This document shows positions 4,038-31,100 of a stretch of DNA of 36,417 nucleotides, one piece after another (position 1 is the stretch's first letter; the number at the start of each line of letters is the position of its first letter). The DNA is from Candidatus Omnitrophota bacterium (GTDB lineage: Bacteria; Omnitrophota; Gorgyraeia; Zapsychrales; Fredricksoniimonadaceae): positions 1 to 36,417 of the forward strand of contig CAIUQE010000023.1 in assembly GCA_903901225.1 (NCBI GenBank), given 5' to 3'. The notes under the pieces were generated by a model, which was not told the DNA's origin, did not search any database, and saw nothing but the letters and a program-made list of their open reading frames with translations. Both the position numbers and the translations under genes were made by a program.

Positions 4038-6766
<2,729 letters not shown>

Positions 6767-10249: not shown

Positions 10250-10277
10250 TTGACAAGTTTTGATTGCATGGTATAGT
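10250..10277 (+). promoter_or_regulatory. Promoter of leader B / organosulfur cluster
   Basis: TTGACA at 10250-10255, 16-base spacer, TATAGT at 10272-10277 preceded by TGG (extended -10). A palindrome ATCTC-TAGC-GAGAT (10284-10297) lies at the expected start of the transcript. Confidence 0.8.
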
Positions 10278-10282
10278 CCCAC

Positions 10283-10631
10283 CATCTCTAGCGAGATAGT
10301 CGTGAATAGAAATCTATAAAGACATCGTTCACGCACTGTAGTGTTTCAAATACATATTTTGATCTGTGGACGGGATAACCCGCTGCCTATCGTGAATTTT
10401 CGAGGGGTAGTGGGTTTTTACTTGGATTTTGCTCCGCAAAATCCACCGCGTAGCGGTCGCGTGGCAAATCCGATGAGGATTTGCCAGCTTTGCGAAGTAA
10501 CTCCCGAAGCCACCAGGCGGCCAATAACCGCCGGGGCTGAGGGAGAACGGATACTAAAGTAGTTAGTTTACCAGATAACTGGAAGGCTAAATATGTGTCA
10601 GGAGGTCTCTGGCATGTGTTTAGCCTTTTTT
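10283..10631 (+). promoter_or_regulatory. Leader RNA B: candidate attenuator or riboswitch before the organosulfur cluster
   Basis: This leader of about 350 bases fills the 516-base gap before the porin gene. In order it has a 5' palindrome; a GTGAA/TTCAC stem (10302-10306 with 10328-10332) closing an internal loop TAGAA; a CCCGCTGCC/GGGTAGTGGG stem (10379-10387 with 10404-10413); hairpins 10424-10444 and 10463-10485; a long hairpin 10501-10545 with a tandem GA/GA internal loop; the CCAG-ATAA-CTGG hairpin 10571-10582; and a terminator. The first module matches leader C with compensatory changes. No known riboswitch consensus was recognised. Confidence 0.7.
10585..10631 (+). terminator. Intrinsic terminator of leader B
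   Basis: The arms 10585-10601 and 10609-10625 pair at all 17 positions (with G-T pairs), followed by six T. It precedes the porin gene by about 105 bases, so it is an attenuator for the cluster. Confidence 0.9.
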
Positions 10632-10736
10632 GTTGATAAAGCCAGCGGTTAACCGTGGCGACGAAGTGAGTGTTAAACATAAATTGAGTGAGCTGACCAG
10701 ATTCCTGGAAGCGATAGACTCACAGGAGGAGAAAAA

Positions 10737-12140
10737 ATGAGAGCTTTATTGGTTTCCGGGTTGGTCGTAGCAAGTTTATTGTTGTTGGTACCTGTCTCAA
10801 GGGCGCAGGGGCTGGATGTGGATGCCTTGAGAAAGGAACTGCAGGAACTGCGGGACGAGGTGAAAGGATTAAAGGATGAACTGAAGGTTGTGAAGGAGCA
10901 AAAGCAGGCGTCATCTGTCGCGTCTTCTTCCGGTGCCGCGCAGGGTGGCGTTACCCGGGATGAATTAGCGGGTGTGCGTGGTGAGGTTGAAACACTGCGC
11001 GATGACTGGAAACGCAGCTTTGAGCGCAACACAGCCCAGGCCAGCCGCGCGCTTTCTTTAAGCGGACTTGTCCAGACGCGTTTCAGCACCAAGGACGACG
11101 GCGCTAACAGCACCAACGGGTTCTCGATCCCTTTGCTTCAACTCGGCTTTTCGGGCAGTTTGAAGAAGGATTATGAGGATGGCAAGAACCTTGATTACCT
11201 GGTGAGCTTGTATAGCAATACCACAGCGGATTCGTATCGTGTCGCGCCGCAGGACGTGTACATCAATTATAACGTCCTTTCGACGCTTGACGCTGAATCG
11301 CCCAGGCTGTCCATTACGACCGGTCAGCAGAAAAAGCCGTTCGGGCGTGATCCCCAGACCACGGAAGAGTACAAGCCGACCATCAGCCTGGCGCAGTTTG
11401 ATTCAAATCTTGGCTTGAGCACAAGGGATATAGGCGTTGTGGTGAAAGGCGATCTTTTGCCCATCAATGATTACGGGTACAATTACCGCGTCCCGCTGGT
11501 CGAATATTCTCTCGGTGTGCTCAACGGGGCCGGGCAGAATATCGCTGACAATAACAAATCAAAAGATTACGTTGGCCGGCTGGTGCTTAACGCGCCGGTG
11601 GATTACAACTCGGTATTCCGTGGTTTATCCATAGGTGGTTCCGTTTATGAAGGTCAACAGCCCCGCACCGCCACACTTTCCGGGGTGTCCGTCATACGCG
11701 GCCAGGGCGCGAAAGAAAGGCTCGGGGCGGATATCGGCTATGTGCGTACGCCCATCGGGTTCACGGCGGAATATGCGCAGGGTTACGACGAGATCCTTGG
11801 CGGGACTTCTTCAGTTCCCACGGAGCGCAGCATCAGGAGCCACGGCTACGCCGGCACTGTTTTCTATAACTTCGGCCAGCAGTTCCTCAAGGCGTCCAGG
11901 ACGCAAAGCCGTTACGACGACTGGTTTCCCCGGACGTATCAGCCGTTCATCCGTTATGACCACTGGGATCCGAACACCAATGTTTCCAATGACGCATCGG
12001 ATGTTTACACACTGGGTTTCAACTGGTTCTTTGCCCAGACAACGAAGTTGCAGTTGAACTATAACATCAAACAAACGCGCTCGGCTGCCAATGCACCGGA
12101 CAGTAATGAATTACTGGCGCAATTCCAATATGGATTCTGA
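10737..12140 (+). CDS. Outer-membrane porin with N-terminal coiled coil
   Basis: This 467-residue protein has a signal peptide ending near VSRAQG and a coiled coil at about residues 25-100 (heptads such as LRKELQELRDEVKGLKDELK). The rest is a beta-barrel region rich in alternating aromatic strands, ending in Phe, the usual outer-membrane insertion signal. The layout resembles OprO/OprP-type porins; the coiled coil could anchor or trimerise the protein in the periplasm. AGGAGGAG precedes the ATG. As the first gene after attenuator B it probably admits the compound that the following binding protein captures. Confidence 0.8.
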   Translation: MRALLVSGLVVASLLLLVPVSRAQGLDVDALRKELQELRDEVKGLKDELKVVKEQKQASSVASSSGAAQGGVTRDELAGVRGEVETLRDDWKRSFERNTAQASRALSLSGLVQTRFSTKDDGANSTNGFSIPLLQLGFSGSLKKDYEDGKNLDYLVSLYSNTTADSYRVAPQDVYINYNVLSTLDAESPRLSITTGQQKKPFGRDPQTTEEYKPTISLAQFDSNLGLSTRDIGVVVKGDLLPINDYGYNYRVPLVEYSLGVLNGAGQNIADNNKSKDYVGRLVLNAPVDYNSVFRGLSIGGSVYEGQQPRTATLSGVSVIRGQGAKERLGADIGYVRTPIGFTAEYAQGYDEILGGTSSVPTERSIRSHGYAGTVFYNFGQQFLKASRTQSRYDDWFPRTYQPFIRYDHWDPNTNVSNDASDVYTLGFNWFFAQTTKLQLNYNIKQTRSAANAPDSNELLAQFQYGF

Positions 12141-12161
12141 TCTAACAAGGAGAAATACTAT

Positions 12162-13238
12162 ATGAAAAGGTTATGGAGTGTCGTATTCGGAGTTTTGTTC
12201 CTGAGTGTTGCCGTAGCACCATCAGCCACAGCGGCTGACGCAAAAAAACCGGCCGTGATCCGCATCGGCACCGCGTTCACCGCGGGCAACAGCCGCCCGT
12301 TCTCGCTGCAGACGATCGGTGTGCTTCACCAGCAGGGCCTTCTTGAAGAGGAATTCAAGAAGGACGGGATCAAGATCGAGTGGGTGTTCTTCAAAGGCGT
12401 GAGTCCTGCCGTGAACGAAGCGTTCGCCAATGACACGATCGATATCGGGGCCACGAGCGAACTGGGCGCCATTATCGCCAAGGCGGGCGGGCTCAAGATC
12501 AAGCTGATCGCCAGCGGCGGTACGCGCGGCAATTCCTACCTGGCGGTACCCATTGATTCCCAGGCGACAAAAGTGGAGGACCTCAAGGGGGCGAAGCTGG
12601 CGACAAGCAATGCCACGAATTTCCAGCTGGCGTTTGAACGCATCCTGCAGTTGAAGGGCCTGACGCACAAGGATTTCAAGGCCTATAACCTCGGGCCGGC
12701 GGATGGTGTCGCGGCGCTCGCCTCCAAGGATATCAACGGGGCGGTTTACGGGACCCAGCTTTTCGCGCCCCGTCGTCTTGGACTGGTCAAGATCATCTAT
12801 TCGACGCGGGATGATTTCCCGGATAAGTGGAAATCTTTCAGTGGTATTTTCGTGACGGAGAAGTTCGCTAAGGATCATCCTGATCTTACGGAGCGTTTCC
12901 TGAAGGTGTTCGCGCGGGCCGCCAAGTGGGCGTCGGATGAGAATAACCGCGAGGCGTATTTCCTGGGTCAGGCCAAGACCGGGACGTCGGTGAATGATAT
13001 TCGCGAGGACGCCGAAGGCACGCCCTTGAGCGTTAAGAACACCCCCTTGCTTGATGACTTTGTCGTTGGGCATTTCCGGGATACGATCCAGTTCGCCCTT
13101 GAGCGCGGGTTGATCCGCAAGGCGTACGATGTTAACAGTCTCGTTGACGCGTCATTCCTGGAAGCGGCGTTGAAGGATGAGGGGCTGGACCATTTCTGGG
13201 CCAAGTATGATGGAGAAGGCAAGGAAACAACGAAATAA
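12162..13238 (+). CDS. SsuA/TauA-like periplasmic binding protein
   Basis: This NitT/TauT-family solute-binding protein of 358 residues has a signal peptide ending near ATAADA. Family features are IRIGTAFTAGNSRP, GVLHQQGLLEEEF, FFKGVSPAVNEAFANDTIDIGATSE, and VEDLKGAKLAT. These proteins bind sulfonates, taurine, nitrate or similar anions and pass them to SsuBC-type transporters, which are encoded at 17003-20537. The ligand is unknown; a sulfonate, sulfinate or related organosulfur compound is inferred from the desulfinase downstream. AAGGAG precedes the start. Confidence 0.87.
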   Translation: MKRLWSVVFGVLFLSVAVAPSATAADAKKPAVIRIGTAFTAGNSRPFSLQTIGVLHQQGLLEEEFKKDGIKIEWVFFKGVSPAVNEAFANDTIDIGATSELGAIIAKAGGLKIKLIASGGTRGNSYLAVPIDSQATKVEDLKGAKLATSNATNFQLAFERILQLKGLTHKDFKAYNLGPADGVAALASKDINGAVYGTQLFAPRRLGLVKIIYSTRDDFPDKWKSFSGIFVTEKFAKDHPDLTERFLKVFARAAKWASDENNREAYFLGQAKTGTSVNDIREDAEGTPLSVKNTPLLDDFVVGHFRDTIQFALERGLIRKAYDVNSLVDASFLEAALKDEGLDHFWAKYDGEGKETTK

Positions 13239-13264
13239 AGGTCGAAAGGCCGAAAGGTATCATC

Positions 13265-14041
13265 ATGAGCGCATTATTAACACAAGACATCAATTATGAC
13301 GCGATCAAGGATCCGCAGGTCGTGACGCTTCTCAAAGGGTTAAAACACCGGCGTTTCAACGCGTATTACGCGCCGGACGCGGAAACCGCCCGCAAGATCG
13401 TCCTGGAATTAGTCCCGGCGGATGTGAAGATCGGCACCGGGGATTCGACCTCGGCGACACAGCTGGGGATAGCGGATGCCCTGAAAGAAAGAGGCAATGT
13501 TGTTTACGACGCCCACAGGCGGGGTAATACGTGGGAAGAAACACATCGGGCCAGCGCGCTTTCCTACAGTTCCGATTGCCGTTACTTCCTGACGGGCACC
13601 AACGCGGTGACCCAGGATGGCCGGCTGGTGAATGTTGACGCGGTCGGCAACCGCGTCGGTGGCATGTTTTACGGCCATGAGCATTCGGTCCTGATCATTA
13701 GCCGTAACAAGATCGTCAAGGACCTCGACGCGGCGTTCCACAGGATCCGGACGCAGATATCGCCCCAGCACGTGAAGATCCGCAGCACGGATCTTGGCGG
13801 CCGGCCGTTCAAAACGGGATGCGTCAAGACGGGTGTTTGCGTGGATTGTCAGGGAGAGGATCGCACTTGCAATGTGTTCACGGTCATTGAAGGCAAGCCC
13901 AAGCGGACAACGGTCCATGTCGTAGTCGTTGACCTTGACATCGGGCTGGGCTGGGACCCGTCGTGGCCCCAGGAACGGATCCAGAAGATCATTGACGGGT
14001 ACAAGTCACTGGTCTGGATCCCGCCGCAACTGAAGAACTGA
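13265..14041 (+). CDS. LUD-domain protein with C-terminal cysteine cluster
   Basis: This 258-residue protein resembles the LUD (DUF162) domain of lactate-utilisation proteins: KIGTGDSTSATQLGI, RRGNTWEETHRASALSYSSDCRYFLTGTNAVTQDGRLVNVDAVGNRVGGM-like core, and HEHSVLIISRNKIVKDL. After residue 180 come four cysteines (GCVKTGVCVDCQG...TCNV) that could hold an Fe-S cluster or zinc. LUD proteins in lactate operons help oxidise 2-hydroxy acids, but stand-alone members are uncharacterised. It has no signal peptide. The terminator after it separates it from the next gene. Confidence 0.78.
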   Translation: MSALLTQDINYDAIKDPQVVTLLKGLKHRRFNAYYAPDAETARKIVLELVPADVKIGTGDSTSATQLGIADALKERGNVVYDAHRRGNTWEETHRASALSYSSDCRYFLTGTNAVTQDGRLVNVDAVGNRVGGMFYGHEHSVLIISRNKIVKDLDAAFHRIRTQISPQHVKIRSTDLGGRPFKTGCVKTGVCVDCQGEDRTCNVFTVIEGKPKRTTVHVVVVDLDIGLGWDPSWPQERIQKIIDGYKSLVWIPPQLKN

Positions 14042-14054
14042 AGTGAAATGAATA

Positions 14055-14101
14055 CAGCGCTCCGTGGGGTTGTGTTGGCCCTGCGGAGCGCTGGAGTTTT
14101 T
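14055..14101 (+). terminator. Intrinsic terminator after the LUD gene
   Basis: A perfect 10-bp stem, CAGCGCTCCG (14055-14064) with CGGAGCGCTG (14084-14093), is followed by GAG and a T run at 14097-14101. It should reduce, or end, transcription between the importer/LUD genes and the radical-SAM gene. No new promoter is obvious in the 29 bases before the next start. Confidence 0.85.
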
Positions 14102-14129
14102 CGTCATAAGAACATAAGGAAAATTTTAT

Positions 14130-15380
14130 ATGGCCGTTGAGCGTTTGCTGGAAATAGACAGGCTGGGGCGTAAATATCCGGATGTGCCAAGATTCATTAT
14201 CCTCAAGCTTGACCTGCTGCGTCGCGGGGCGCGTTTGACCGCCCGGGCTTTGGATGCGGTGCAGAATGACGCGTACCGTTTTGGCCCGATGCTCATTTTC
14301 TTCAAAGGGGGCGGCAGCAAGAAGACTGACCGTTCCAATCCCGGGTCCATGCTCCTGCGTGATGGCACGACCGCGCCGGTGTCGTTCGAGGAGTATTTTG
14401 AAGATCCTTACCGGGTGGACTATCAGGGTGGGAAGTTCATCCTTTACGACGGGCGCGCGCGGGTGGACGAAGTGGATTTCACGCCGCGCCCTAAATATTA
14501 CGGCCATCTCACCACGAGCGGCATCCCCATGGAATCGATCGCCAGCGCCCGCGCCCAGCGGTTGATCATTTGCGCGTACCGGCATTGCCATCTTTGGGAC
14601 ACGGGCGACCAGTGCAAATACTGCGCGTTCTTTACCGACCTGAAAGCGTCGCGTCCGGCCTTTGACACGCCGCTGCGCCGGGGCGTGAACCCGGAAGATA
14701 TTTATGAGACGGTGCGCGAAGTGCTCAAGGAGCCGGGGCGCATCTCCGAGATCTACCTCACCGCGGGCATGGATTACCGCGGAGAGCATTTCTTTGATGA
14801 GGAAGTGGAGCGGTATATCCGTATCCTGCAGGCGATCGGCCGGAATTTCAAGGGCCGCTTCTCCAGCCAGATCATGGCGCCTGCGTATTCCAAAGCCCAG
14901 TTGACCCGGCTTTACCGCGAAACGGGGTTGACATCATATTGTCCCAATATTGAGGTCTGGGACGAGCGTTTGTTCGGGTGGATCTGCCCGGGAAAAAATA
15001 AATGGCCGGGGCGCAAGGAGTGGATCAAACGGACGCTGGATGCCGTCGATATTTTCGGCAAGGGCAATGTTTACACGCAGGTTGTCGCCGGAGTGGAGCT
15101 GGCCAGGCCCCACGGGTTCAAGACGGTTGACGCGGCATTGCGTTCCAATCTTGAAGCGTGCGAATTTTTCGCCAAACGCGGCGTTATCTTTTTGAGCACC
15201 GTCTGGAGGATGAATCCCGCCTCCGCTTTGGCCGGGCAGAAGAATCCGCCGCTGGAATATATTATCCGGTTGTCGAAAGGCCTTTATGACATACGCAAAG
15301 CGTACGGCCTCAGTTCGGATAATGACGATTATAAACACTGCGGCAATCACGCTGACGCGGACCTGGAAAGGATCGACTGA
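14130..15380 (+). CDS. Radical-SAM family enzyme with unusual cysteine spacing
   Basis: This 416-residue protein holds C148-x4-C153-x8-C162-x2-C165 (ICAYRHCHLWDTGDQCKYCAF). The final CX2C fits a radical-SAM [4Fe-4S] site, but the canonical CX3CX2C is replaced by CX8CX2C, recalling the CX9CX2C of Elp3. Downstream features agree with a radical-SAM barrel: ISEIYLTAGMDY, SSQIMAPAYS, YCPNIEVWDERLF, and GNVYTQVVAGVELARPHG. About 145 residues precede the cluster. Such enzymes cleave SAM to start radical chemistry; a C-S bond cleavage would fit the cluster, but that is inference. The substrate is unknown. Confidence 0.75.
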   Translation: MAVERLLEIDRLGRKYPDVPRFIILKLDLLRRGARLTARALDAVQNDAYRFGPMLIFFKGGGSKKTDRSNPGSMLLRDGTTAPVSFEEYFEDPYRVDYQGGKFILYDGRARVDEVDFTPRPKYYGHLTTSGIPMESIASARAQRLIICAYRHCHLWDTGDQCKYCAFFTDLKASRPAFDTPLRRGVNPEDIYETVREVLKEPGRISEIYLTAGMDYRGEHFFDEEVERYIRILQAIGRNFKGRFSSQIMAPAYSKAQLTRLYRETGLTSYCPNIEVWDERLFGWICPGKNKWPGRKEWIKRTLDAVDIFGKGNVYTQVVAGVELARPHGFKTVDAALRSNLEACEFFAKRGVIFLSTVWRMNPASALAGQKNPPLEYIIRLSKGLYDIRKAYGLSSDNDDYKHCGNHADADLERID

Positions 15381-15382
15381 GT

Positions 15383-15880
15383 ATGGGGCACGATCATAAA
15401 ACAGCGGCGCTCGCGTCGGGCGTTGTGGCTTTGTTGAAGGACAGGAAGGCCGTGAAGGTCGTAGGGTCTTTGAACGCGGATGGCTCTCCATACATAGAGG
15501 TCAATGATGCTTTGACAACGCTTGATGCCTCGACATTGATCCTGCCGGAGGAACTGGAGAAATCGGCCGGGAACAGGAACCTGGTGCGCAGCATCTGGTT
15601 TGACAAGCCCGTGACGTTCCACGTGGGGCGCGGCGATGAGGCGTACTACATTCAGGCTAAAGTTTACCGGTGTTTGATCGCGGGCAAACTGTTCGAGCAG
15701 ATGCTCCTGCGCAAAAGGGCCGAAGAGGGGGCGGACGCTGACATTTCGGTCGTATGGGAATTTATTCCTGTTTCGGTCGAGGAGGTGACGGTGAAGGTCC
15801 TGAGAAAAGAACAGGAAGCGCGGCATCCGTATTTTGACAGGCATTTGGATCGGGCAAGCATAAAGACCGGAAGTAATTAA
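15383..15880 (+). CDS. PNPOx-like FMN-binding protein
   Basis: This 165-residue protein has the split-barrel pattern of pyridoxamine-phosphate-oxidase-like flavoproteins: VVALLKDRKAVKVVGSLNADGSPYIEV, then SIWFDKPVTFHV and YYIQAKVYRCLIAGKLFE. Relatives are flavin reductases or flavin- and heme-handling proteins. It starts two bases after the radical-SAM stop, so the two are probably co-translated; it may supply reduced flavin or electrons to its neighbours. Exact chemistry is not visible. Confidence 0.72.
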   Translation: MGHDHKTAALASGVVALLKDRKAVKVVGSLNADGSPYIEVNDALTTLDASTLILPEELEKSAGNRNLVRSIWFDKPVTFHVGRGDEAYYIQAKVYRCLIAGKLFEQMLLRKRAEEGADADISVVWEFIPVSVEEVTVKVLRKEQEARHPYFDRHLDRASIKTGSN

Positions 15881-15893
15881 AAGGAGGCTTACC

Positions 15894-16982
15894 ATGAGTG
15901 CGATCGCGAAAAGATCAAAGAAAGTCAGCAAGGCGAAGACGGGCAAGAGATCAAAAGAGATATTCTATACCATTTGCCCCGTGCAGGTGGCGTCGCATGT
16001 GGCCGTCGAAAAAGGCTGGCTGGATGAGGCGTTTAAAAAGGTGGGCGCCACAGCGCGTTTCCTGCGCGCCTTACCCAAGGACCAGTGGCTGCCGCATTTC
16101 ACGCACCGGCGCCCCGAGCTTTTCCGCGACGGGGGGAACATTCCTCCTATCTGGGCCAGGTCGGAAGGTGTTGACACAAAATTGATCGGGCTGACCTTTG
16201 CCGGCACGGGCGGCAAGATCGTCGTCAAGGTTGGTTCAGGCATCCGTTCGATCCAGGACCTCAGAGGTAAAAAGATAGGGCTTTCACTGCGTCGCACCAA
16301 AGACCGGGTGGATTTCGCGCGCGCCACGGCGCATCGCAGCATCCTTCTGGCGCTGGGTTATGCCGGCCTCAGTGAGCGTGATGTCCAGCTGGTCGACATC
16401 CCTGAATTCGAGGCCAAAGAGGGGGATCCTTCCTGGTCGGTGCTTTCTTCGGCGGAGACTCCGGTGGAATTCTGGGGCAAGGGAAAATTGAAGTCGGTGG
16501 CCTGGAATGACGGGAAGGCGTTGCTCGACGGGACGGTGGACGCGGTTTTCTCAGGGCACGGACGTTCCGCCAAACTCGAATCGGAAGGCCTGGTGACCAC
16601 CATTGAAGACCTGGGCCGTTATCCCGACTGGACAACGCAGGTGGCCAATACGCCGACCGCGATCACGGTCAATACCGAGCTGGCCAAGAGCCATCCCGAG
16701 ATCGTTGTGGCCTGGCTCAAGGCGTCGATCAAGGCCGGGCAGTGGATCCGCAAGAATCCCGAAGCGGCGGCGGAGATCCTGGCGGAAGTTACCATTTATG
16801 GATGCTTCCATCATTTGGTCCGGGACCTCGCGACGTACAATTATGTGCCGAACCTGTCCGGGAAAAGCCTGGGCGGCATTGAGGTGGAAAAGAACTTCCT
16901 GTTGGAGCACGGGTATATCAAGAACGATTTCGACGTGCGCGCGTGGGCGGATGACAGTTTCTTAAAACAAGCCCTTAAATAA
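15894..16982 (+). CDS. DszB-like desulfinase (SsuA-fold, cytoplasmic)
   Basis: This 362-residue protein has the NitT/TauT binding-protein fold but no signal peptide; the N-terminus is a lysine-rich cytoplasmic tail. It strongly recalls DszB, the 2-(2-hydroxyphenyl)benzenesulfinate desulfinase of Rhodococcus. Cys28 in YTICPVQ, His68 in HFTHRRP and Arg78 in FRDGGNIPP match DszB Cys27, His60 and Arg70, with the RxGG motif and the same 10-residue His-Arg spacing. The end, ARGWADD-like SFLKQALK, also resembles DszB. DszB releases sulfite from an aryl sulfinate. The true substrate here is unknown. AAGGAGG precedes the ATG. An alternative is a cytoplasmic sensor derived from a binding protein. Confidence 0.78.
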   Translation: MSAIAKRSKKVSKAKTGKRSKEIFYTICPVQVASHVAVEKGWLDEAFKKVGATARFLRALPKDQWLPHFTHRRPELFRDGGNIPPIWARSEGVDTKLIGLTFAGTGGKIVVKVGSGIRSIQDLRGKKIGLSLRRTKDRVDFARATAHRSILLALGYAGLSERDVQLVDIPEFEAKEGDPSWSVLSSAETPVEFWGKGKLKSVAWNDGKALLDGTVDAVFSGHGRSAKLESEGLVTTIEDLGRYPDWTTQVANTPTAITVNTELAKSHPEIVVAWLKASIKAGQWIRKNPEAAAEILAEVTIYGCFHHLVRDLATYNYVPNLSGKSLGGIEVEKNFLLEHGYIKNDFDVRAWADDSFLKQALK

Positions 16983-17002
16983 CCCCGCGGGGAAAGGTAA
17001 CG

Positions 17003-18946: not shown

Positions 18947-18949
18947 CCC

Positions 18950-19729
18950 ATGCCCGGAAAAAATAAATTCTTATGGAGGGATCTTTGGGCCGGCCTGGCC
19001 CTTCCGCTGGGGCTGCTCGCGGCCTGGAAACTGGTGTCCGCCGCCGGGTGGGTGAACGCGTCCCTATTGCCGTCGCCGGAAAAGGTCCTGAAGGTCATTG
19101 GAGATTCGCTGGCGGACGGGTTCCTTGTGAAGAACCTTTTGATCAGTTTCAACCGGGTGATCAAAGGGTTCCTTGCCGGTTCCACCATAGGCTTTGTCCT
19201 GGGAACATGGATGGGGCTGTCGAAGACGGCTGAAAAGGTATTTGGCCCGTTCTTTCACGCCATCCGCAATGTGCCCTTGGTGGGATGGGTGCCGCTGTTC
19301 ATCATCTGGTTCGGTTTCGGGGAGTTTTCGCAGGTCGTTTTTATTTCCGTGGGGGCGTTCTATCCGGTCGTCCTCAACACGTTGCAGGGTATCCGCGGCG
19401 TCCGACGTGAGTATGTCGAACTGGGGCGGGTGTTCGGTTTCAGCCGGTTGAAGGTTTTCACGAGGATCATCCTTCCGGCCGCGATCCCGTCGGTGTTCAC
19501 CGGCGTGCGCCTGAGCCTGAGCATTTCGTGGATGCTGGTCGTGGCCGCCGAACTTTTTGGCGTTTCGACCGGCGGGGTGGGTAACATGATGATGGACGCG
19601 CGGGAATTTTTCAAGATGGACATCGTGATCATGGGCATACTGACGATCGGGGTTGTCGGGTTCATCATGAACCAGCTGCTGGCAATGATCGAAGGGCATT
19701 TCTTATCCTGGAAGCGGAAAGCCGCGTAA
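18950..19729 (+). CDS. SsuC/TauC-type ABC permease
   Basis: This 259-residue inner-membrane permease has about six hydrophobic segments, the family opening NASLLPSPEKVLKVI, and the coupling loop EYVELGRVFGFSRLKVFTRIILPAAIPSVFTGVRLSLSISW-like. It starts three bases after the fusion gene and is a close relative of that protein's C-terminal half, so a heterodimeric channel (this protein plus the fused permease) is likely. Substrate is probably a sulfonate-like anion. Confidence 0.9.
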   Translation: MPGKNKFLWRDLWAGLALPLGLLAAWKLVSAAGWVNASLLPSPEKVLKVIGDSLADGFLVKNLLISFNRVIKGFLAGSTIGFVLGTWMGLSKTAEKVFGPFFHAIRNVPLVGWVPLFIIWFGFGEFSQVVFISVGAFYPVVLNTLQGIRGVRREYVELGRVFGFSRLKVFTRIILPAAIPSVFTGVRLSLSISWMLVVAAELFGVSTGGVGNMMMDAREFFKMDIVIMGILTIGVVGFIMNQLLAMIEGHFLSWKRKAA

Positions 19730-19757
19730 GGACAATGGTATTTTTGGGGAGTTGTAT

Positions 19758-20537
19758 ATGACAGAAGCGGGGAAATTATATATTCGCGCGTTGAACAAGA
19801 AGTTCAACGTGGACGCGAAGGAGATATCGGTCCTGGAGGACATCAACCTGACGGTCGAGGGGGGGGAGTTCATCAGCATCATCGGCACGAGCGGTTGCGG
19901 GAAGACGACATTGCTGAAACTTATTGTCGGGTTGGGTGGGGCGTATGACGGCGATATTATCCTTAACGGGCAAAGGGTCGATGGCCCCGGCCTCGAGCGT
20001 GGCATTGTGTTTCAGGATCACCGCCTGCTGCCCTGGCTTACCGTCAGTGAGAATATCGGCTTCGGGCTTGATGCCAAAATCAAGAAAGCCGAGCGCCAGG
20101 AGATCATCCGCAAGCATATCCAGCTGATCGGCCTGAGGGGTTTTGAGAAAGCTTACCCGTACCAGTTGTCCGGCGGGATGGCCCAGCGCGCCGCGATCGC
20201 GCGGTCTTTGGTGAACCGCCCGGCGATCCTGATGCTCGATGAGCCGTTGGGGGCGCTCGATGCTTTGACGCGCATGTATATGCAAAGGGAACTGGAAAAG
20301 ATATGGAAAGAGGAGCGGATCGCCATGATCATGGTCACGCATGACGTCGAAGAGGCGATCTACCTGGCGGACAAGGTCGTGGTCATGTCCAGCCGGCCCG
20401 GCAGGATCAAGAAGGTCATCCCTGTCGGTTTATCGCGCCCGCGCGACCGGGATAGTTATGAGTTTATTCGGATCAAGGACGAGATCCTGAAAGAATTCCA
20501 TCTGGAAGCGGAGAAATATTTTTCCTATTCGATCTAG
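19758..20537 (+). CDS. SsuB/TauB-type ABC ATPase
   Basis: This ATPase of about 259 residues drives the importer. Walker A is GTSGCGKTT, the Q-loop is VFQDHRLLPWLTVSENIGFGL, the signature is LSGGMAQRAAIARSL, Walker B is LMLDEPLGALD and the switch His is in MVTHDVEEAI. QDHRLLPW is typical of nitrate/sulfonate/taurine transporters. I chose ATG 19758, six bases after GGGGAG; a TTG at 19752 is also in frame. The stop at 20535-20537 is followed directly by the MFS reading frame. Confidence 0.92.
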   Translation: MTEAGKLYIRALNKKFNVDAKEISVLEDINLTVEGGEFISIIGTSGCGKTTLLKLIVGLGGAYDGDIILNGQRVDGPGLERGIVFQDHRLLPWLTVSENIGFGLDAKIKKAERQEIIRKHIQLIGLRGFEKAYPYQLSGGMAQRAAIARSLVNRPAILMLDEPLGALDALTRMYMQRELEKIWKEERIAMIMVTHDVEEAIYLADKVVVMSSRPGRIKKVIPVGLSRPRDRDSYEFIRIKDEILKEFHLEAEKYFSYSI

Positions 20538-20631
20538 GCGGTTCGATCCGCGTCAGGTTTTTGCCGCGCTGGGGCACCGTAATTACCGCCTTTTTTTCAC
20601 AGGCCAGGGGATATCGCTCATCGGGACCTGG

Positions 20632-21816
20632 ATGCAGAAGGTGGCGGAGCAGTGGCTGGTCTATCGCCTGACGGGTTCGGTCCTCATGCTGGGGCTGGTC
20701 GGGTTCCTGGGCCAGATCCCCACCTTCGTCCTCGCGCCGTTCGCCGGGGTCGTGGCGGACAGGCACGACCGCCGCAAGCTCCTGCTTGTGATCCAGGCGT
20801 TCGCCATGTTCCAGGCCATAGCCTTGTCGGCGCTGGTGCTGTCCCATACCATCCAGATATGGCATATCATGGCCCTGAGTTTTATTCTCGGTGTTGTTAA
20901 CGCATTCGATATTCCCATCCGCCAGTCATTCACCATCGAAATGGTCGAAGCCAATGACGGCAGGGACCTGGGCAACGCGATCGCCATGAATTCATCGATG
21001 ATCAACATGGCGAAGCTGGTGGGCCCCTCGGTCGCGGGCATCCTCATCGTCCTGGTCGGAGAGGGGCTGTGCTTTCTATTGAATGCCATCAGTTATCTGG
21101 CTGTCATAGCGTCCCTTCTGGCCATGAATATGAGGCCCCGCGCGGCTGTTGTCGTCGAAAAGCATATTTTCCATGACCTTAAGGAGGGCCTGGATTATTC
21201 CCTCAAGTTCGGGCCGATAAAATATATCCTGTTCATCCTGGCCGTGAACAGTCTCATGGGCCATCCGTATATGGTATTGATGCCTGTGTTCGCGAGGAAG
21301 GTGTTGCATGGCGGGCCGCATACCTTGGGGTTCCTGATGGGCAGCGCCGGCACCGGCGCCTTGATCGGGGCGTTTTACCTGGCGAGCCGGGATTCTGTCC
21401 GTGGGCTGATCGGCCGTATCTGGACAGCGTCGCTCTTGTTCGGCATCGCGCTCATCGGCTTTTCATTTTCTACCGTCTTGTGGTTGTCCATGGCGCTGCT
21501 CATGCTGGCCGGCTTTGGCATGATGGTCCAGATGGCGGCAAGCAATACGATCCTGCAGACGATCGTCGACGGGCGGATGCGCGGGCGGGTGATGAGTTTT
21601 TACACGATGTCGTTGATGGGCATGACGCCTTTTGGCAGCCTGTTCGGGGGGTGCGTGGCGGACAGGATCGGCGCGCCGCGCACGCTGCTCATCGGCGGCG
21701 TGGCGTGCATGGGGGCGGCATTGTTCTTCTGGCGTAAAATGCCCGTGATCAAGGAAAAGATACGGCCGGTCTATATTGAGAAGGGGATACTCTCCGACGG
21801 GGAAGCCGCGGCCTGA
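20632..21816 (+). CDS. MFS transporter (EntS/MFS_3-like), true start upstream and non-ATG
   Basis: This is a major-facilitator carrier of at least 394 residues with the loop GVVADRHDRRKLLLV and about 11-12 membrane segments. ATG 20632 is the first ATG, but convincing MFS sequence continues upstream in the same frame: FDPRQVFAALGHRNYRLFFTGQGISLIGTW, starting at about 20542, so the protein probably begins near 20527-20545. That stretch offers no ATG, GTG or TTG, only ATT at 20527 or CTG at 20569. Use of a rare start coupled to the ATPase stop, or a small frameshift, is likely. It may export a product of organosulfur breakdown such as sulfite, or a toxic remnant; that is only a guess. Confidence 0.82.
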   Translation: MQKVAEQWLVYRLTGSVLMLGLVGFLGQIPTFVLAPFAGVVADRHDRRKLLLVIQAFAMFQAIALSALVLSHTIQIWHIMALSFILGVVNAFDIPIRQSFTIEMVEANDGRDLGNAIAMNSSMINMAKLVGPSVAGILIVLVGEGLCFLLNAISYLAVIASLLAMNMRPRAAVVVEKHIFHDLKEGLDYSLKFGPIKYILFILAVNSLMGHPYMVLMPVFARKVLHGGPHTLGFLMGSAGTGALIGAFYLASRDSVRGLIGRIWTASLLFGIALIGFSFSTVLWLSMALLMLAGFGMMVQMAASNTILQTIVDGRMRGRVMSFYTMSLMGMTPFGSLFGGCVADRIGAPRTLLIGGVACMGAALFFWRKMPVIKEKIRPVYIEKGILSDGEAAA

Positions 21817-21826
21817 TAATTTTTGG

Positions 21827-21855
21827 TTGACATTTTTTACGAGTTATCCTATATT
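21827..21855 (+). promoter_or_regulatory. Promoter of the Rrf2 gene
   Basis: TTGACA at 21827-21832, 17-base spacer, TATATT at 21850-21855. The segment TTAGTCATAT (21857-21866) at the expected start point recurs inverted at 22313-22322 after the gene, so it may be the regulator's own operator. Confidence 0.7.
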
Positions 21856-21887
21856 TTTAGTCATATTTGAAATTTGGAGAGCCGGAA

Positions 21888-22289
21888 ATGAAGTTGACCT
21901 CCCGCAGTGAATACGCCTTATTGGCCCTGTTGTACCTTGCCCGGCACGGCAGTGACAAGCTTGTGACCGTGGATACCATTGCCAAGGCCCAGGATATTCC
22001 TCCCAAGTTCCTTGAACAGATCTTGTTGCTGCTCAAGCGCGCCAGGTACTTGAAGAGTTCCAAGGGCCAGCATGGCGGTTACGCGCTGGGTAAGCCCGCT
22101 GAAAAGATCACCCTGGCCGAGATCGTGCGCCTGATCGATGGCGCGCTGGCGCCGACCGAATCGGTCAGCGTCTATTTCTTCGAGCATACGCCTATAGAGA
22201 AAGAGAAGAACCTGATCCGCGTGTTCAAGGATATCAGGGATTACGTGTCCAAGAAGCTGGAGAACACGACGCTGGCAGACCTGGTTTAG
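21888..22289 (+). CDS. Rrf2-family transcription regulator without cysteines
   Basis: This 133-residue winged-helix regulator begins MKLTSRSEYALLALLYLARHG, with the recognition helix region KAQDIPPKFLEQILLLLKRARYLKSSKGQHGGYALGKPAEKITLAEIVRLIDG typical of Rrf2 proteins (shown here by its landmarks IPPKFLEQIL and GGYAL). The central loop has no Cys, so unlike IscR or NsrR it should not hold an Fe-S cluster; CymR, the cysteine-metabolism repressor, is similar in this respect. I chose ATG 21888 with GGAG upstream rather than ATG 21867, which overlaps the predicted transcript start. It probably controls its own cluster in response to sulfur or cysteine status. Confidence 0.87.
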   Translation: MKLTSRSEYALLALLYLARHGSDKLVTVDTIAKAQDIPPKFLEQILLLLKRARYLKSSKGQHGGYALGKPAEKITLAEIVRLIDGALAPTESVSVYFFEHTPIEKEKNLIRVFKDIRDYVSKKLENTTLADLV

Positions 22290-22377
22290 GCCGCCTTTTT
22301 ATTTTGCGCCATATATGACTAATCCTATCGGAAAAGATAGTAAATAGCCCCTGAACGGGTCAAGAAAAGGAGACCAG

Positions 22378-23184
22378 ATGCGCATTGATGAACTGAAGAT
22401 ACTGGGTGGTGTTGGCAAGAACCGCCAGCCGGACCTGGTCGAAGAGATCGTCCTGAAAATGGGCGATGTGATCAGCATCGTCGGGCCGACAGGCTCGGGC
22501 AAAACAACGCTTATTGATGACATCGCGTTATTCGCCAACCAGAATACGCCCACCAACCGCCGGGTTCTCATCAACGGGGCTTACGCGCCCGAGGAGTTCA
22601 TGACCGACCCGTCCAAGAACCCGATCGCTTTTATCACCCAGCACACGAATTTTCTTTCTGACTTGCCGGTAGATGAGTTTCTGGATATCCACGCCGGCAT
22701 CCGCCAGAGCGGGAACAAGGCCGCTGTTATCGCGGAGACGCTGGATTTCGCCAACCAGCTGACCGGTGAGCCGATCAACCCGGTGAACGGCATGACCGAC
22801 CTTTCCGGCGGGCAGACGCGCGCGTTGCTCATTGCGGACGCGGTCATCATCGGCAATTCGCCGATCATTTTACTGGATGAGATCGAGAACGCCGGCATCC
22901 ACCGTACCAAGGCGCTGGAACTGCTGAAACATTATGAAAAAATATTCATTTTTGTCACCCACGATCCGCGCATCGCGCTGTTGTCGGATTTCCGCGTGGT
23001 CATGCAGAATGGCGCCATGGTCAAGATCGTGCATTCAAACGCCGAGGAATTGACCGTCGCGGAAGAGATCAAGAAATTGGACGACCTTATCCTGCATTTC
23101 AGGCAACTGATCCGCAACGGCGAACAGCTTGACGGGAACATGCTTGAGGAGAGGCTTACGGCTTTAGGTTACTCCGGGAAATAA
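22378..23184 (+). CDS. ABC-fold ATPase of unknown role
   Basis: This 268-residue soluble ATPase has Walker A GPTGSGKTT, signature LSGGQTRALL, Walker B IILLDEIENAG, and switch His in VTHDPR. It lacks membrane segments and no permease accompanies it. Walker B differs from transporter ATPases (DEIENAG in place of DEPTSGLD), and about 50 helical residues follow the nucleotide-binding part. It sits immediately upstream of a GTPase, a cysteine desulfurase and an Fe-S protein, so a role in metallocofactor assembly or in sulfur delivery is more likely than transport. AAGGAG precedes the ATG. Confidence 0.75.
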   Translation: MRIDELKILGGVGKNRQPDLVEEIVLKMGDVISIVGPTGSGKTTLIDDIALFANQNTPTNRRVLINGAYAPEEFMTDPSKNPIAFITQHTNFLSDLPVDEFLDIHAGIRQSGNKAAVIAETLDFANQLTGEPINPVNGMTDLSGGQTRALLIADAVIIGNSPIILLDEIENAGIHRTKALELLKHYEKIFIFVTHDPRIALLSDFRVVMQNGAMVKIVHSNAEELTVAEEIKKLDDLILHFRQLIRNGEQLDGNMLEERLTALGYSGK

Positions 23185-23209
23185 TTTATCCAATAAAAGG
23201 AGAAGTCAC

Positions 23210-23911
23210 ATGAAGGTTGTCATTTGCGCGGGGCCCCCGACGACAGGGAAGACAACGGTGCTCAAGCAGGTCACCAAACGCCTGATCGCCGCAGGCTCGA
23301 AGGTCGCGTACCTTAAGATCGACGTGCAGTACGCCGTTGAGGACGAGATGTTCAAGAAAGAATTCGGCATCCCGGTCAAGAAAGTTTACTCCGGCGAGCT
23401 TTGTCCCGATCATTGCAATGTGATGGTGCTGGGCGACGCGATCACCTGGGCGCAGAAGAATGAAGCGGAGTACCTTCTGGTTGAGACCGCTGGCTTGTGC
23501 CTGCGCTGTTCGCCGTATATCGAAGGGTCGCTGGGCATTGTTGTCCTCGAGGCCACCAGCGGCATGAACCTGCCGCGCAAGATCGGCCCCATGCTTACGC
23601 TGGCTGATGTCGCGGTCGTGACCAAGATCGACCTGATCTCGCAGGCCGAGCGCGAGGTGTTCCGGGCGCGCGTCATCAGCGCCGCGAGCGACATTGCCAT
23701 TTGCGAGACCAATGCCCTTTACGGCATCGGGATCGATTCAGTCGTGAAAAAGATCCAGGCGTCATCCGAGATCCAGGACCCGCTGATCCTGCGCGGCAAT
23801 CCACCGGTGGGGACTTGCACCGTGTGCGTCGGGAAAAAAGAGATCGGCTGGCAGCAGCATTTCGGTGTGGTCCGGCCGCTCGAGGGCGATATTTTCTATC
23901 AAGGAGAATAA
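23210..23911 (+). CDS. P-loop GTPase with paired cysteines (G3E/HypB-like)
   Basis: This 233-residue nucleotide-binding protein has P-loop GPPTTGKTT, VETAGLC at the position of the switch II region, and TKIDL as the guanine-specificity motif, all like SIMIBI GTPases such as HypB, UreG or CooC-type metal chaperones. Cysteine pairs at LCPDHC, LCLRC and GTCTVC could bind metal or an Fe-S cluster. It is probably a cofactor or metal insertion GTPase acting with the ABC-fold ATPase next to it. The target enzyme is not in the window. Confidence 0.75.
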   Translation: MKVVICAGPPTTGKTTVLKQVTKRLIAAGSKVAYLKIDVQYAVEDEMFKKEFGIPVKKVYSGELCPDHCNVMVLGDAITWAQKNEAEYLLVETAGLCLRCSPYIEGSLGIVVLEATSGMNLPRKIGPMLTLADVAVVTKIDLISQAEREVFRARVISAASDIAICETNALYGIGIDSVVKKIQASSEIQDPLILRGNPPVGTCTVCVGKKEIGWQQHFGVVRPLEGDIFYQGE

Positions 23912-25081
23912 GTGCACAGGATATACCTCGACAACAGTGCCAGCACGCGGGTCGATCCGCGCGTTGCGGAAGCGATGCGGCCCCACTTTTCGGAATTCTA
24001 CGGGAACGCGTCGAGCCTGCACAGTTTTGGCCGTGAAGCCAAGGCCGTGATGGATGAGGCGCGGGCCACTTTGGCCGCCCTGATCGGCGCGAAGCCTCAG
24101 GAAGTCGTGTTCACCTCGTCCGGGACGGAGTCGAATAATTTTGCCCTCAAAGGCGTCGCGTTCGCTAACAGAGGCAAGGGCAACCACATCATTGTTTCCG
24201 CGATCGAGCATGATTCGGTGCTCGGCCCCGCGCAGTGGCTTGGGGGGCAGGGGTTTGACGTTTCTTATCTTCCTGTCGATGAGGATGGCCTGGTTTCTGC
24301 GGTGGCGCTGAGCCGTGAGATCAGGAAGGGAACGATCCTGGTATCCGTGATGCACGCCAACAATGAGATCGGTACTATTCAATCGATCGGTGAGCTTGGC
24401 ATGGTTTGCCGGGAACGGGGGGTGTATTTTCACACCGACGCCTGCCAGTCGTTCGGCAAGGTCCCCGTTGATGTTCATGCGCAGAGCCTTGATCTTGTGA
24501 CGATCAATGCGCACAAGATCTATGGACCCAAGGGCATTGGCGCTTTGTTCATCCGTGAGGGTGTCCGCATCATGCCATGGCAGCACGGCGGCGGGCATGA
24601 GATGGGCCTGCGTTCAGCGACGGAGAATATCCCGGCGATCGTCGGGTTCGCGAAGGCCGCGGCCTTGTGCGTTGAGGAAATGGACGCGGAAGATGCCAGG
24701 ACCGTGGCCTTGCGTGAAAAGATCATTGATGCCGTGCTTGATACTGTGCCGTATGCCTACCTGAACGGCTCTCGTCAGCAGCGTTTGGCGAACAATATCA
24801 GCCTCGGGTTCTCCGGGCTTGAAGGGGACGCCATCCGGCTATTGCTGGAACTTGATGATCTGGGGATCGCGGTCTCCAGTGGTTCCGCGTGTTCGTCCAA
24901 TGGCGGCGGGCACAAAACCTCGCATGTCCTTTCGGCGATAGGGCTCGACCCTGTCCGGGCGCGCGGGGCGTTGAGGGTCTCGCTCGGGCGTTTTAATACG
25001 GCCCAGGACGTGGATATTTTTCTAGAGAAGCTCTCTGAAGTTTTGAGAAGTCTGAAACCGCTCACATCAGTTTTAATTTAA
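23912..25081 (+). CDS. Cysteine desulfurase (NifS/IscS family)
   Basis: This PLP enzyme takes sulfur from cysteine, giving alanine and an enzyme persulfide for Fe-S or sulfur-cofactor synthesis. Features include IYLDNSASTRVDP, GNASSLHSFGREAK, VVFTSSGTESNNFALKG, HANNEIG, the PLP lysine in NAHKIYGPKG, and the catalytic Cys in SSGSACSS followed by GGGHKTSHVL. Length is 389 residues, normal for the family. It starts with GTG one base after the GTPase stop, behind AAGGAG. With its neighbours it probably builds a dedicated cofactor. Confidence 0.93.
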   Translation: MHRIYLDNSASTRVDPRVAEAMRPHFSEFYGNASSLHSFGREAKAVMDEARATLAALIGAKPQEVVFTSSGTESNNFALKGVAFANRGKGNHIIVSAIEHDSVLGPAQWLGGQGFDVSYLPVDEDGLVSAVALSREIRKGTILVSVMHANNEIGTIQSIGELGMVCRERGVYFHTDACQSFGKVPVDVHAQSLDLVTINAHKIYGPKGIGALFIREGVRIMPWQHGGGHEMGLRSATENIPAIVGFAKAAALCVEEMDAEDARTVALREKIIDAVLDTVPYAYLNGSRQQRLANNISLGFSGLEGDAIRLLLELDDLGIAVSSGSACSSNGGGHKTSHVLSAIGLDPVRARGALRVSLGRFNTAQDVDIFLEKLSEVLRSLKPLTSVLI

Positions 25082-25091
25082 AGGGGGGAAT

Positions 25092-25772
25092 ATGCAGGAT
25101 AATACTCTGACACAATTGCCGGGTCTGGATTGCGGTTCATGCGGGCAAAGATCATGCCAGCAGTTCGCGGAAGTGATCGCGAAAGATCCCAAGGAGATCG
25201 AAAAGTGCATCCATCTGGATGCCAGGGCTGTTGAGGCCAGGACCGCGGAGCGCCGGGCGGTGTGCGGCAGCTGCGCGACCGAGAAGCCATTGGAATCCAA
25301 ACTCAACTGGAAGGATTCTTTGGGCCGCGAATTTGATTTCGTCCTCGACACCTTTCCGAACGAAGCCGGGCCGCGGGAAACGATCATCCCGCATAATCCT
25401 GCGCGGACGAAGGAATTGGAGTTGAAGCCGGGAGACATCATCATCGGCAGGCCGCTGGGGATGTCGTGCGGTTGTCCGATCACGCATTGCGGAGTGGTGG
25501 TCAGCGCGGATTATGTCAACGGGGTCGTTGTCTGGTGTGTCACCGGGCCGCTGAACCCGCGTTCCAAGGCGCACAAGGATGTCGGGTATTATTCCGCGGA
25601 AGCGTATGACGGGATCGTGCGGGCGACGAACAAGGAGCTGAAGATCGGCATGCGCTACTGGTTCCTTCCGCACCGCTGCATGCTCCAGTGGCGCCATAGC
25701 GGGCTGATCAATTTCATCAACAAAAGAAAAGACTTTACGCAGATCAGGATCGAGGGGTTGTTTATAGGGTGA
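25092..25772 (+). CDS. Fe-S cluster protein with an uncharacterised C-terminal domain
   Basis: This 226-residue protein begins with a 4Fe-4S motif, LDCGSCGQRSC...C (C-x2-C-x4-C plus a later Cys40 region), as in the Fe-S domain of the corrinoid protein AcsC/CdhE and of RnfB. A second pair (VCGSC) and CGCPITHCG follow, and the last 110 residues form an unrecognised domain rich in aromatic residues. There are no membrane segments or signal peptide. It closes the run of ATPase, GTPase and desulfurase genes and may be their target or an electron carrier. AAGGGGGG precedes the ATG. Confidence 0.75.
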   Translation: MQDNTLTQLPGLDCGSCGQRSCQQFAEVIAKDPKEIEKCIHLDARAVEARTAERRAVCGSCATEKPLESKLNWKDSLGREFDFVLDTFPNEAGPRETIIPHNPARTKELELKPGDIIIGRPLGMSCGCPITHCGVVVSADYVNGVVVWCVTGPLNPRSKAHKDVGYYSAEAYDGIVRATNKELKIGMRYWFLPHRCMLQWRHSGLINFINKRKDFTQIRIEGLFIG

Positions 25773-25793
25773 AGGCGAGCAGAGAGGTCTTTT

Positions 25794-25857
25794 GAGCGTA
25801 GGGGCCGACCTTGTGTCGGCCTGGTACGACGGGCGGACATAAAGTCCGCCCCTACGC
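25794..25857 (+). repeat. Palindromic repeat family 2, copy 1 (cloverleaf)
   Basis: The outer arms GCGTAGGGGC and GCCCCTACGC enclose two inner hairpins, GGCCGAC-CTTGT-GTCGGCC and GGGCGGAC-ATAAA-GTCCGCCC, so the element can fold as a three-way junction. It lies between the Fe-S protein gene and leader C and may also act as a transcript end. Confidence 0.9.
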
Positions 25858-25896
25858 ACCAATGTTATTACCGGGAACCAGTGTAAAAAAATAAAC

Positions 25897-25924
25897 TTGA
25901 CAAATGCGATTCATATGGTATATT
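25897..25924 (+). promoter_or_regulatory. Promoter of leader C / permease operon
   Basis: TTGACA at 25897-25902, 16-base spacer, TATATT at 25919-25924 with TGG before it. A perfect palindrome CTATCTC-TACT-GAGATAG (25929-25946) covers the expected start point. Confidence 0.8.
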
Positions 25925-25928
25925 TCTA

Positions 25929-26119
25929 CTATCTCTACTGAGATAGTCGTGATTAGAAGTCCTCAAGGACAGTGATCACAGCAACGATTTCAGGCGGATT
26001 TTGTAGTAAGCGAGGTGAATAAGATAGCGATCAGGGTATAGTCCACGCAGGCTGACCAGACATCTGGAGGCCCAGGATATTTCCGGTACGACCGGTTATG
26101 TTCTGGGCTTCATTATTTT
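25929..26119 (+). promoter_or_regulatory. Leader RNA C: candidate attenuator or riboswitch before the permease operon
   Basis: A leader of about 190 bases has a 5' palindrome, a GTGAT/ATCAC stem (25949-25953 with 25974-25978) holding TAGAA and the inner hairpin GTCC-TCAA-GGAC, a 75-base middle part, the CCAG-ACAT-CTGG hairpin at 26056-26067, and a terminator two bases later. Bases 25926-25978 match leader B closely, with paired substitutions in both stems. It precedes the amino-acid permease by about 30 bases. Confidence 0.7.
26070..26119 (+). terminator. Intrinsic terminator of leader C
   Basis: The arms 26070-26086 (GCCCAGGATATTTCCGG) and 26092-26108 (CCGGTTATGTTCTGGGC) pair apart from two T-T mismatches, followed by a T-rich run TTCATTATTTT. 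It lies 27 bases before the permease start, so it attenuates the operon. Confidence 0.85.
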
Positions 26120-29146: not shown

Positions 29147-29722
29147 ATGGCACGTATACCGCTGGTCCGTTATGAGGACGCATCGCCTGAGATCCAGGCC
29201 GAATATAAAAAGGTGGTTGAGAAACACGGGGACGTTTCGAACATGAAGGCGACACTTCTGCATTCGCCGGTGGCGTTGCATGCTGTTCTGGAGTGGTACA
29301 CGCTTTACGAGAAGGTCAAGCCGGTCCTGGGCAATCGCCGCACGATCCTGTTCTGTGACGCTATTTCCCGCGAGAACGCTTGCACGTTGTGCGCGACGTA
29401 CATGAACCGGGCGATCGTCAAGGGCGGGGAGAAGCCCGGGGAGTTGAAACTCGATGAACAGGACCAGGCCGTGATCGCGTTCGGCCAACAGCTGGCGGCC
29501 AATCCCAACCGCGTTACCGATACGCTTTTCAAGAAACTACAGGCGTTCCTGACGCCCGCCCAGATCGTCGATCTGACCGTGTTCGGCGCCATGATGATCG
29601 TCAATAACGTGTTCAACAGTGCGTTGCAGGTGGACCTGGATGAATCGCTCGATGCGTACCAGATCCAGCCGGAAGTCGCTTTCGCAGGGTCATCGCACTA
29701 CACAGGCAAGGAGGCCATATGA
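29147..29722 (+). CDS. AhpD/carboxymuconolactone decarboxylase-like protein
   Basis: This 191-residue helical protein of the AhpD-like fold has the redox pair CTLC in ISRENACTLCATYMNR, which matches the CxxC of AhpD, but the usual His three residues later is not there. AhpD reduces peroxiredoxin AhpC; other members are peroxidases of unknown partner. The ATG at 29147 follows AAGGAGAG; an upstream GTG at 29117 lies inside a repeat and is rejected. The end overlaps metY2 (ATGA at 29719). Its role next to a sulfhydrylase could be thiol or persulfide redox protection. Confidence 0.8.
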   Translation: MARIPLVRYEDASPEIQAEYKKVVEKHGDVSNMKATLLHSPVALHAVLEWYTLYEKVKPVLGNRRTILFCDAISRENACTLCATYMNRAIVKGGEKPGELKLDEQDQAVIAFGQQLAANPNRVTDTLFKKLQAFLTPAQIVDLTVFGAMMIVNNVFNSALQVDLDESLDAYQIQPEVAFAGSSHYTGKEAI

Positions 29723-31045: not shown

Positions 31046-31100
31046 AAAGCGGGGACATGTACCAAATTCGCCCTTTGAATTTGGTACGTGCCCCCGGATC
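31046..31100 (+). repeat. Palindromic repeat family 1, copy 6
   Basis: A nearly perfect copy (loop GCCCTTT; right arm ends GTGCCCCCGGATC) between metY2 and the giant gene; it ends nine bases before the latter's ATG. Confidence 0.92.

Follow-up and report, generated by a model that had tools for sequence, protein, structure and literature searches.

A hairpin that overlaps terminators before bacterial sulfur genes, and its genetic link to the small protein OscA (DUF2292)

Here we describe a short hairpin that stands before sulfur-related operons in a 36,417-nucleotide stretch of Candidatus Omnitrophota DNA (the window, meaning the whole stretch analysed), where it overlaps the start of an intrinsic terminator and, together with it, makes up a predicted RNA attenuator outside every Rfam 15 family. 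The element is closely linked to genes for OscA, a protein of around 60 amino acids from the DUF2292 family, a link that points to a protein partner for the RNA. Our preferred reading, to which we give a probability of roughly 60%, is that OscA most likely holds the hairpin under sulfur starvation and thereby permits read-through, in a two-layer control with an Rrf2/CymR-like repressor acting at the promoter.

The element reads P1-GA-CCAG-AYAW-CUGG-A-P1' followed by the terminator, and the broader consensus is P1-NA-CYRG-(4-5 nt, A-rich)-CYRG-A-P1'. In 15 aligned hairpin-terminator units, the bases just 5' of CCAG are complementary to those with which the terminator opens, the pairings including GACU/GGUC, GGCU/GGCC and UUAGUU/AGGCUAA. 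The terminator 5' arm starts at the A right after CUGG and P1' is its first three to seven bases, so the hairpin would act as an antiterminator, hairpin and terminator being mutually exclusive as predicted structures. Calculated folding energies are -15 to -27 kcal/mol for the terminators and -7 to -11 kcal/mol for the hairpins, which makes termination the expected default. The hairpins and terminators of the window, all on the forward strand, are as follows.

3667-3693 (+): putative antiterminator hairpin A (UUGAAC-GA-CCAG-ACAU-CUGG-A-GGUCAA), core 3673-3687
3687-3737 (+): intrinsic terminator A, its 5' arm common with hairpin P1'
10563-10590 (+): putative antiterminator hairpin B (UUAGUU-UA-CCAG-AUAA-CUGG-A-AGGCUAA, one bulged G), core 10570-10583
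10584-10631 (+): intrinsic terminator B
10692-10712 (+): fourth hairpin, ribosome-site type, without terminator (GCU-GA-CCAG-AUUC-CUGG-A-AGC), core 10696-10709
26050-26072 (+): putative antiterminator hairpin C (GGCU-GA-CCAG-ACAU-CUGG-A-GGCC), core 26054-26068
26068-26110 (+): intrinsic terminator C

A previous reading of this DNA from its letters alone (the sequence-only reading) had placed three leaders, A, B and C, in the window, each with a promoter, a 5' palindrome, a hairpin and a terminator, and all of these are present, the leaders at the coordinates it gave. Its count of three hairpins falls short, as the exact pattern ACCAG-N4-CTGGA occurs four times (at 3674, 10570, 10696 and 26055), always on the forward strand and between genes, the additional copy (10696-10709) preceding a porin gene. 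It was right that a terminator follows, though not that this begins one or two bases beyond the hairpin, the terminator's first bases being those that pair with the bases 5' of the hairpin core. When one mismatch is allowed, the window holds seven matches against 1.7 expected, a number that no shuffle reached. Scored with the core model, the four copies reach E = 4e-11, 7e-9, 1e-7 and 0.008, the three leader copies being members of its training set. The core of the fourth hairpin lies about 28 nt 5' of the porin start codon, with an AGGAGG at 10724-10729, and genome G003 has a hairpin at the same position.

Support for the structure comes from covariation. Standard pairs fill 93.5% of the pair cells among 112 core-model hits, 98 of them distinct; five of the eight pairs show two-sided changes across the distinct sequences, none of 500 shuffles being as good, and control structures slid along the alignment are paired in only 17-51% of cells. 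Having been fitted to the model, the alignment is biased towards the structure, but swaps of entire stems can be read from the sequences themselves (CCAG/CUGG, CCGG/CCGG, CUAG/CUAG and CUGG/CCAG), and compensatory changes are seen in both stems, P1 and P2. In hairpins that lack a terminator, P1 is still paired in 78 of 96 cells, compared with a mean of 53 and a maximum of 71 over 5000 shuffles, which indicates that P1 is selected in its own right, beyond its share in the terminator.

The element is far more widespread than the window. Its extended core, GACCAGANNNCTGGAGG, recurs on contig C28 of the same genome, where a DUF2292-cysK operon follows, and in three relatives, where it precedes either the permease known from leader C or an Rrf2-DUF2292 pair; one more match, in genome G021, appears to have arisen by chance in coding sequence. 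A first covariance model recovered more members, but with palindrome and hairpin parted among them. A scan of named GTDB genomes with CTGACCAGAYAWCTGGARGYC gave 43 hits against about two expected (estimated by base count), of which some 32 are intergenic before sulfur genes, nearly all of them followed by a terminator with the 5' arm RGYC; hits in Lachnospiraceae, Natrialba and Thiobacillus were judged to be coding or chance and were excluded. By record title the hits fall in Omnitrophota, Geobacteraceae, Methylophilaceae, Bacillota, Chloroflexi, Verrucomicrobia and Chthonomonas, and the element is present in at least seven bacterial phyla. Among the downstream genes, profile searches identify those for ATP sulfurylase, 3'-phosphoadenosine-5'-phosphosulfate (PAPS) reductase, a NifH-like protein, metK, cysK and SsuA, as well as cysE followed by a family 2A encapsulin (the Methylophilaceae encapsulin at locus L083 being confirmed by profile), others having been identified by eye from sequence. 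Geobacter-type genomes, a label that, like the other genus labels for genomes with G numbers, rests on gene content and named records, hold up to 14 core-model matches each (E up to 0.1). In one such genome, a sulfur island whose operons bear the hairpin also contains two tandem SrpI-like genes, which by eye resemble family 2A encapsulins (L170, 7913-10864). In Verrucomicrobia (L076, 4542-4617; L086, 4326-4400), the first hairpin is succeeded by another of variant form (GACCGGCAAACGGAAGTC or similar) just before the ribosome site of a porin gene, hinting at tandem use. One copy may have been noticed before, as an unnamed attenuator before a sulfonate transporter mentioned by Naville and Gautheret in 2010 (PMC2965389).

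A protein partner is suggested by the position of DUF2292 genes. These directly precede the element in varied settings, namely DUF2292-element-sat (L084), DUF2292-element-cysH (L104), DUF2292-element-SsuA-like (L117) and cysK-DUF2292-element-NifH-like (L168). When loci are picked by DUF2292 alone, the hairpin stands just downstream in 5 of 8 from Omnitrophota, 15 of 24 from Pseudomonadota and 14 of 28 from Bacillota, most of those in Bacillota with terminators, against an expected rate of about 0.007-0.009 per DUF2292 locus; within 250 nt downstream it is found at 29 of 48 loci, where 0.007 per locus is expected. Conversely, 27 of the 30 genomes reached by the element pattern encode DUF2292. 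The hits in the other three were judged coding or chance, two from their sequence before the family search and the third from its missing terminator, so that, where the hits are convincing, about 27 of 27 genomes encode DUF2292, while background frequencies are 25 of 398, 68 of 398 and 32 of 81 genomes (6-40%). A search of plasmids for DUF2292 returned three weak hits, which were not used.

OscA (DUF2292; NF033785, PF10055) is known as a sulfur-starvation protein from the oscA-sbp operon of Pseudomonas. According to PMC2996968 and PMC3596284, which both cite Viti et al. 2009, oscA was identified in Pseudomonas corrugata 28 through a chromate-sensitive insertion, forms one transcription unit with sbp and is tied to the sulfur starvation response; the former calls OscA a small protein of unknown function. 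That OscA is needed for sulfur starvation and chromate resistance has been known since 2009. Our literature search found no paper tying OscA or DUF2292 to RNA. The protein on contig C28 of genome G000 exceeds the PF10055 cut-off (E 5e-14) and partially matches NF033785 (39.9 of 85 bits), while a Pseudomonadota protein (L191) passes the latter with 132 bits. The predicted fold of OscA is one helix and a beta-hairpin (predicted local distance difference test score, pLDDT, 76) and ends in a conserved basic segment, QI-x-K-x-EK-x-R. Several Bacillota (for example G741:C48:4019-4294 and G856:C26:46121-46396) carry two DUF2292 domains in a single frame of about 115-146 amino acids, which suggests that the protein may work as a dimer.

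Several observations weigh against OscA as the partner. A comparison of its predicted fold with solved structures returned nothing significant and no RNA-binding protein alike. The linkage P-values, 1e-9 to 1e-27, ignore relatedness and are overstated, as loci within a genus are not independent. Because the hairpin is weaker than the terminator, read-through demands a strong partner, and at several Pseudomonas-type loci (L196 and L203-L208) OscA is encoded without a hairpin and may do something else. These last loci also fit the leading alternative, which we consider a good deal less probable, namely that an elongation factor or some other RNA-binding protein reads the hairpin while OscA is an adaptor or simply co-regulated; sulfur operons often begin with oscA, whose adjacency could therefore reflect co-regulation. 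This alternative sits uneasily with a hairpin that follows the oscA stop codon directly in Omnitrophota, Pseudomonadota, Geobacter, Bacillota, Chloroflexi and Verrucomicrobia despite varied downstream genes, and with 34 Pseudomonadota genomes lacking DUF2292, where the pattern occurs 12 times, exactly as often as its reversed control. We saw no other gene tracking the hairpin in the same way, although no systematic screen was made.

Short hairpins often protect the 3' or 5' ends of mRNA, and the occurrence of this one before both terminators and ribosome sites would suit a passive mRNA stabiliser or terminator accessory that performs no switching. We regard this as improbable, since P1 is kept by compensatory change even though it competes with the terminator, the different phyla have kept its loop and flanking A, and the hairpin is confined to DUF2292 genomes and sulfur genes.

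Direct binding of a sulfur metabolite, one of the effectors raised by the sequence-only reading, is slightly less probable still. The sulfur-gene context, the attenuator architecture and the conserved A-rich loop and A-A internal loop are what a riboswitch might offer, but conservation covers no more than about 25 nt and does not extend to the flanks, the loop of 4-5 nt is variable, and genetic linkage connects the RNA with a protein gene. A tRNA effector, also suggested, was considered as sensing of the tRNA-Cys end through pairing of UGGA with UCCA, and was rejected on the grounds that the stems change with compensation. The proposal of a new attenuator class before sulfur genes has fared better, with covarying copies found upstream of sulfur genes in relatives and well outside them, and with no match to a known class in Rfam. 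Searched whole, the window matched no Rfam family at the gathering threshold, permissive thresholds gave weak sub-threshold matches that we take as chance, and the element loci were equally without a match. That the search works is clear from locus L182 of Bacillus sp. SA1-12, where a genuine S-box (S-adenosylmethionine, SAM, riboswitch) was detected at 3542-3632 on the reverse strand near hairpin-terminator elements; in this genome, the two systems coexist.

Comparison with known systems helps to place the element. The ribonucleic antiterminator (RAT) hairpins of BglG, LicT and SacY are likewise small, occur in several copies per genome and overlap the 5' arm of a terminator, and are stabilised by a protein for read-through. 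They appear to differ from the present hairpin in RNA structure and, set against the RAT consensus, in RNA sequence, and they serve sugar rather than sulfur genes, whereas the hairpin described here is also used without a terminator and its candidate protein, of about 60 amino acids, is unrelated in sequence. ANTAR regulators such as EutV and NasR also act on hairpins whose 3' side overlaps a terminator, in leaders of nutrient-scavenging operons. Their targets consist of two hairpins with six-base loops (cf. PMC3369931). The element described here has a single hairpin with a loop of 4-5 nt. T-box leaders share the choice between antiterminator and terminator in amino-acid genes, and the UGGA of many copies could pair with the UCCA end of tRNA-Cys, but stem I and the T-box sequence are absent, the T-box covariance model has no match in the window or at the element loci, and UGGN is not invariant, since CCGG, CUAG or CCAG can take the place of CUGG when the partner strand changes to suit. 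Methionine and cysteine genes are similarly controlled by attenuation through S-box and other SAM riboswitches, yet neither these nor cobalamin or S-adenosylhomocysteine (SAH) riboswitches reach the Rfam gathering score in the window or at the elements.

The other component of the leaders is the 5' palindrome, which most likely is a DNA operator of an Rrf2/CymR-like repressor. The elements relevant to this layer of control are listed below, the promoters having TTGACA, a spacing of 16-17 bp and a TATATT-like hexamer.

3579-3606 (+): promoter of leader A (TTGACA ... TACATT), read from sequence
3610-3629 (+): palindrome A, putative Rrf2-type DNA operator over the start site
10250-10277 (+): promoter of leader B (TTGACA ... 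TATAGT)
10281-10300 (+): palindrome B, putative Rrf2-type operator, exact pattern match
25897-25924 (+): promoter of leader C (TTGACA ... TATATT)
25928-25947 (+): palindrome C, putative Rrf2-type operator, exact pattern match
21867-22289 (+): Rrf2-family regulator, candidate operator repressor (TIGR00738 over cut-off; CymR model E 2e-21, below cut-off)
35430-35870 (-): second Rrf2-family regulator (TIGR00738 over cut-off; CymR model E 4e-26, below cut-off)

In 15 copies, the palindrome starts 4 bp past the -10 hexamer, so that its left arm lies mostly upstream of or at the expected start site, and both arms fit the half-site YACTAWCYC although full complementarity is lost in most copies, often through C-A mismatches; the retained half-site, the position over the stretch from -10 box to start site and the copies before Rrf2 genes are as expected of a DNA operator. 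The palindrome occurs both at sulfur-gene promoters and before Rrf2 genes, with a weaker copy at 35881-35900 before the second Rrf2 gene of the window itself, and the best matches to its pattern in the genome are the leaders; a search by promoter pattern for further leaders met unrelated sites only. Both Rrf2 proteins also resemble IscR, again below that model's cut-off, and while Rrf2 genes and a palindrome at sulfur promoter starts recall CymR, the proteins score below its cut-off and the site is putative. Palindromes without hairpin or terminator are found directly before metY (L043), directly before an Rrf2 gene (L024) and at L033, L038 and L045, while hairpin and terminator occur between genes without a palindrome at L037, L041 and, after an apparent mnmA, L022. 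The leader thus consists of two independent modules and not, as the sequence-only reading had it, of one RNA running from palindrome to terminator through a shared, variable structured middle, which is not conserved and is missing in other copies. That the palindrome is an RNA stem and part of a sensor, as its mostly complementary arms in leaders A-C might suggest, is very improbable given a left arm at best partly transcribed, and we rejected the RNA stem on the broken complementarity.

Taken together, the OscA reading would work in two layers. An Rrf2/CymR-like repressor would first act on the palindrome over the start site. After initiation, polymerase would make the small hairpin and then, by default, the far stronger terminator that captures P1'; when sulfur is scarce, the P1/P2 hairpin would be held by an RNA-binding protein acting in trans, which is most likely OscA, so that the terminator is blocked and the operon read. 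Linkage and co-occurrence suggest the contact between OscA and hairpin, and gene content and the OscA literature suggest starvation as the on-signal, the direction of control and a signal sensed by OscA itself being presumed; the contact of an Rrf2 protein with the operator is likewise proposed from sequence. Where the hairpin lies before a ribosome site without a terminator, its position suggests that the same factor may act post-initiation on translation or mRNA stability.

The remaining features of the window are mainly the genes served by the leaders.

3921-5330 (+): metY1, Cys/Met metabolism pyridoxal phosphate (PLP) enzyme, 3' of leader A (Pfam PF01053, E 3e-135)
10372-10419 (+): extra terminator-like hairpin within leader B, 5' of the element, read from sequence
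10737-12140 (+): outer-membrane porin (Porin_O_P), first gene past leader B (Pfam PF07396)
12162-13238 (+): SsuA-like sulfonate-binding protein, next in the leader B operon (TIGR01728 E 5e-36, below cut-off; NMT1)
26147-27589 (+): amino acid permease, first gene past leader C (Pfam PF00324)
29719-31032 (+): metY2, Cys/Met metabolism PLP enzyme, farther 3' in the same gene run as the permease (Pfam PF01053, E 1e-134)

Given its extra hairpin, leader B may have two termination points. A recurrent intergenic palindrome, GGGGACATGTACCAAATTCG...TTTGATACGTGTCCCC, lies at 3753-3808, near 5350, 7520, 29080 and 31060 and at L032, is also visible through repeated frame fragments such as RGHVPNS-EFGTCPR, and is probably a repeat of this genome resembling repetitive extragenic palindromes (REP) or miniature inverted-repeat transposable elements (MITE). 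Part of an open reading frame of 1348 amino acids (31088-35134) resembles Cys/Met PLP enzymes, and its N-terminus has relatives that come after a cysteine-synthase-like gene and the hairpin at L037 and L041.

More broadly, we think it probable that OscA/DUF2292 proteins are a new family of sequence-specific RNA-binding regulators, which would antiterminate through the hairpin, act on translation or stability where there is no terminator, and run the response to sulfur starvation across many phyla. Antitermination by OscA would account for the need of so tiny a protein when cells live on poor sulfur sources, and would give a molecular function to OscA, hitherto without a mechanism. If true, the finding would establish a class of regulatory RNA that Rfam 15 lacks, spanning at least seven phyla and reaching 14 copies in a single genome, and would make sulfur-scavenging regulons predictable from sequence, among them sulfonate uptake, nitrogenase-like reductases, encapsulin-linked cysteine metabolism, metK and metY, with the link between hairpin and OscA testable in Pseudomonas, Bacillus or Geobacter.

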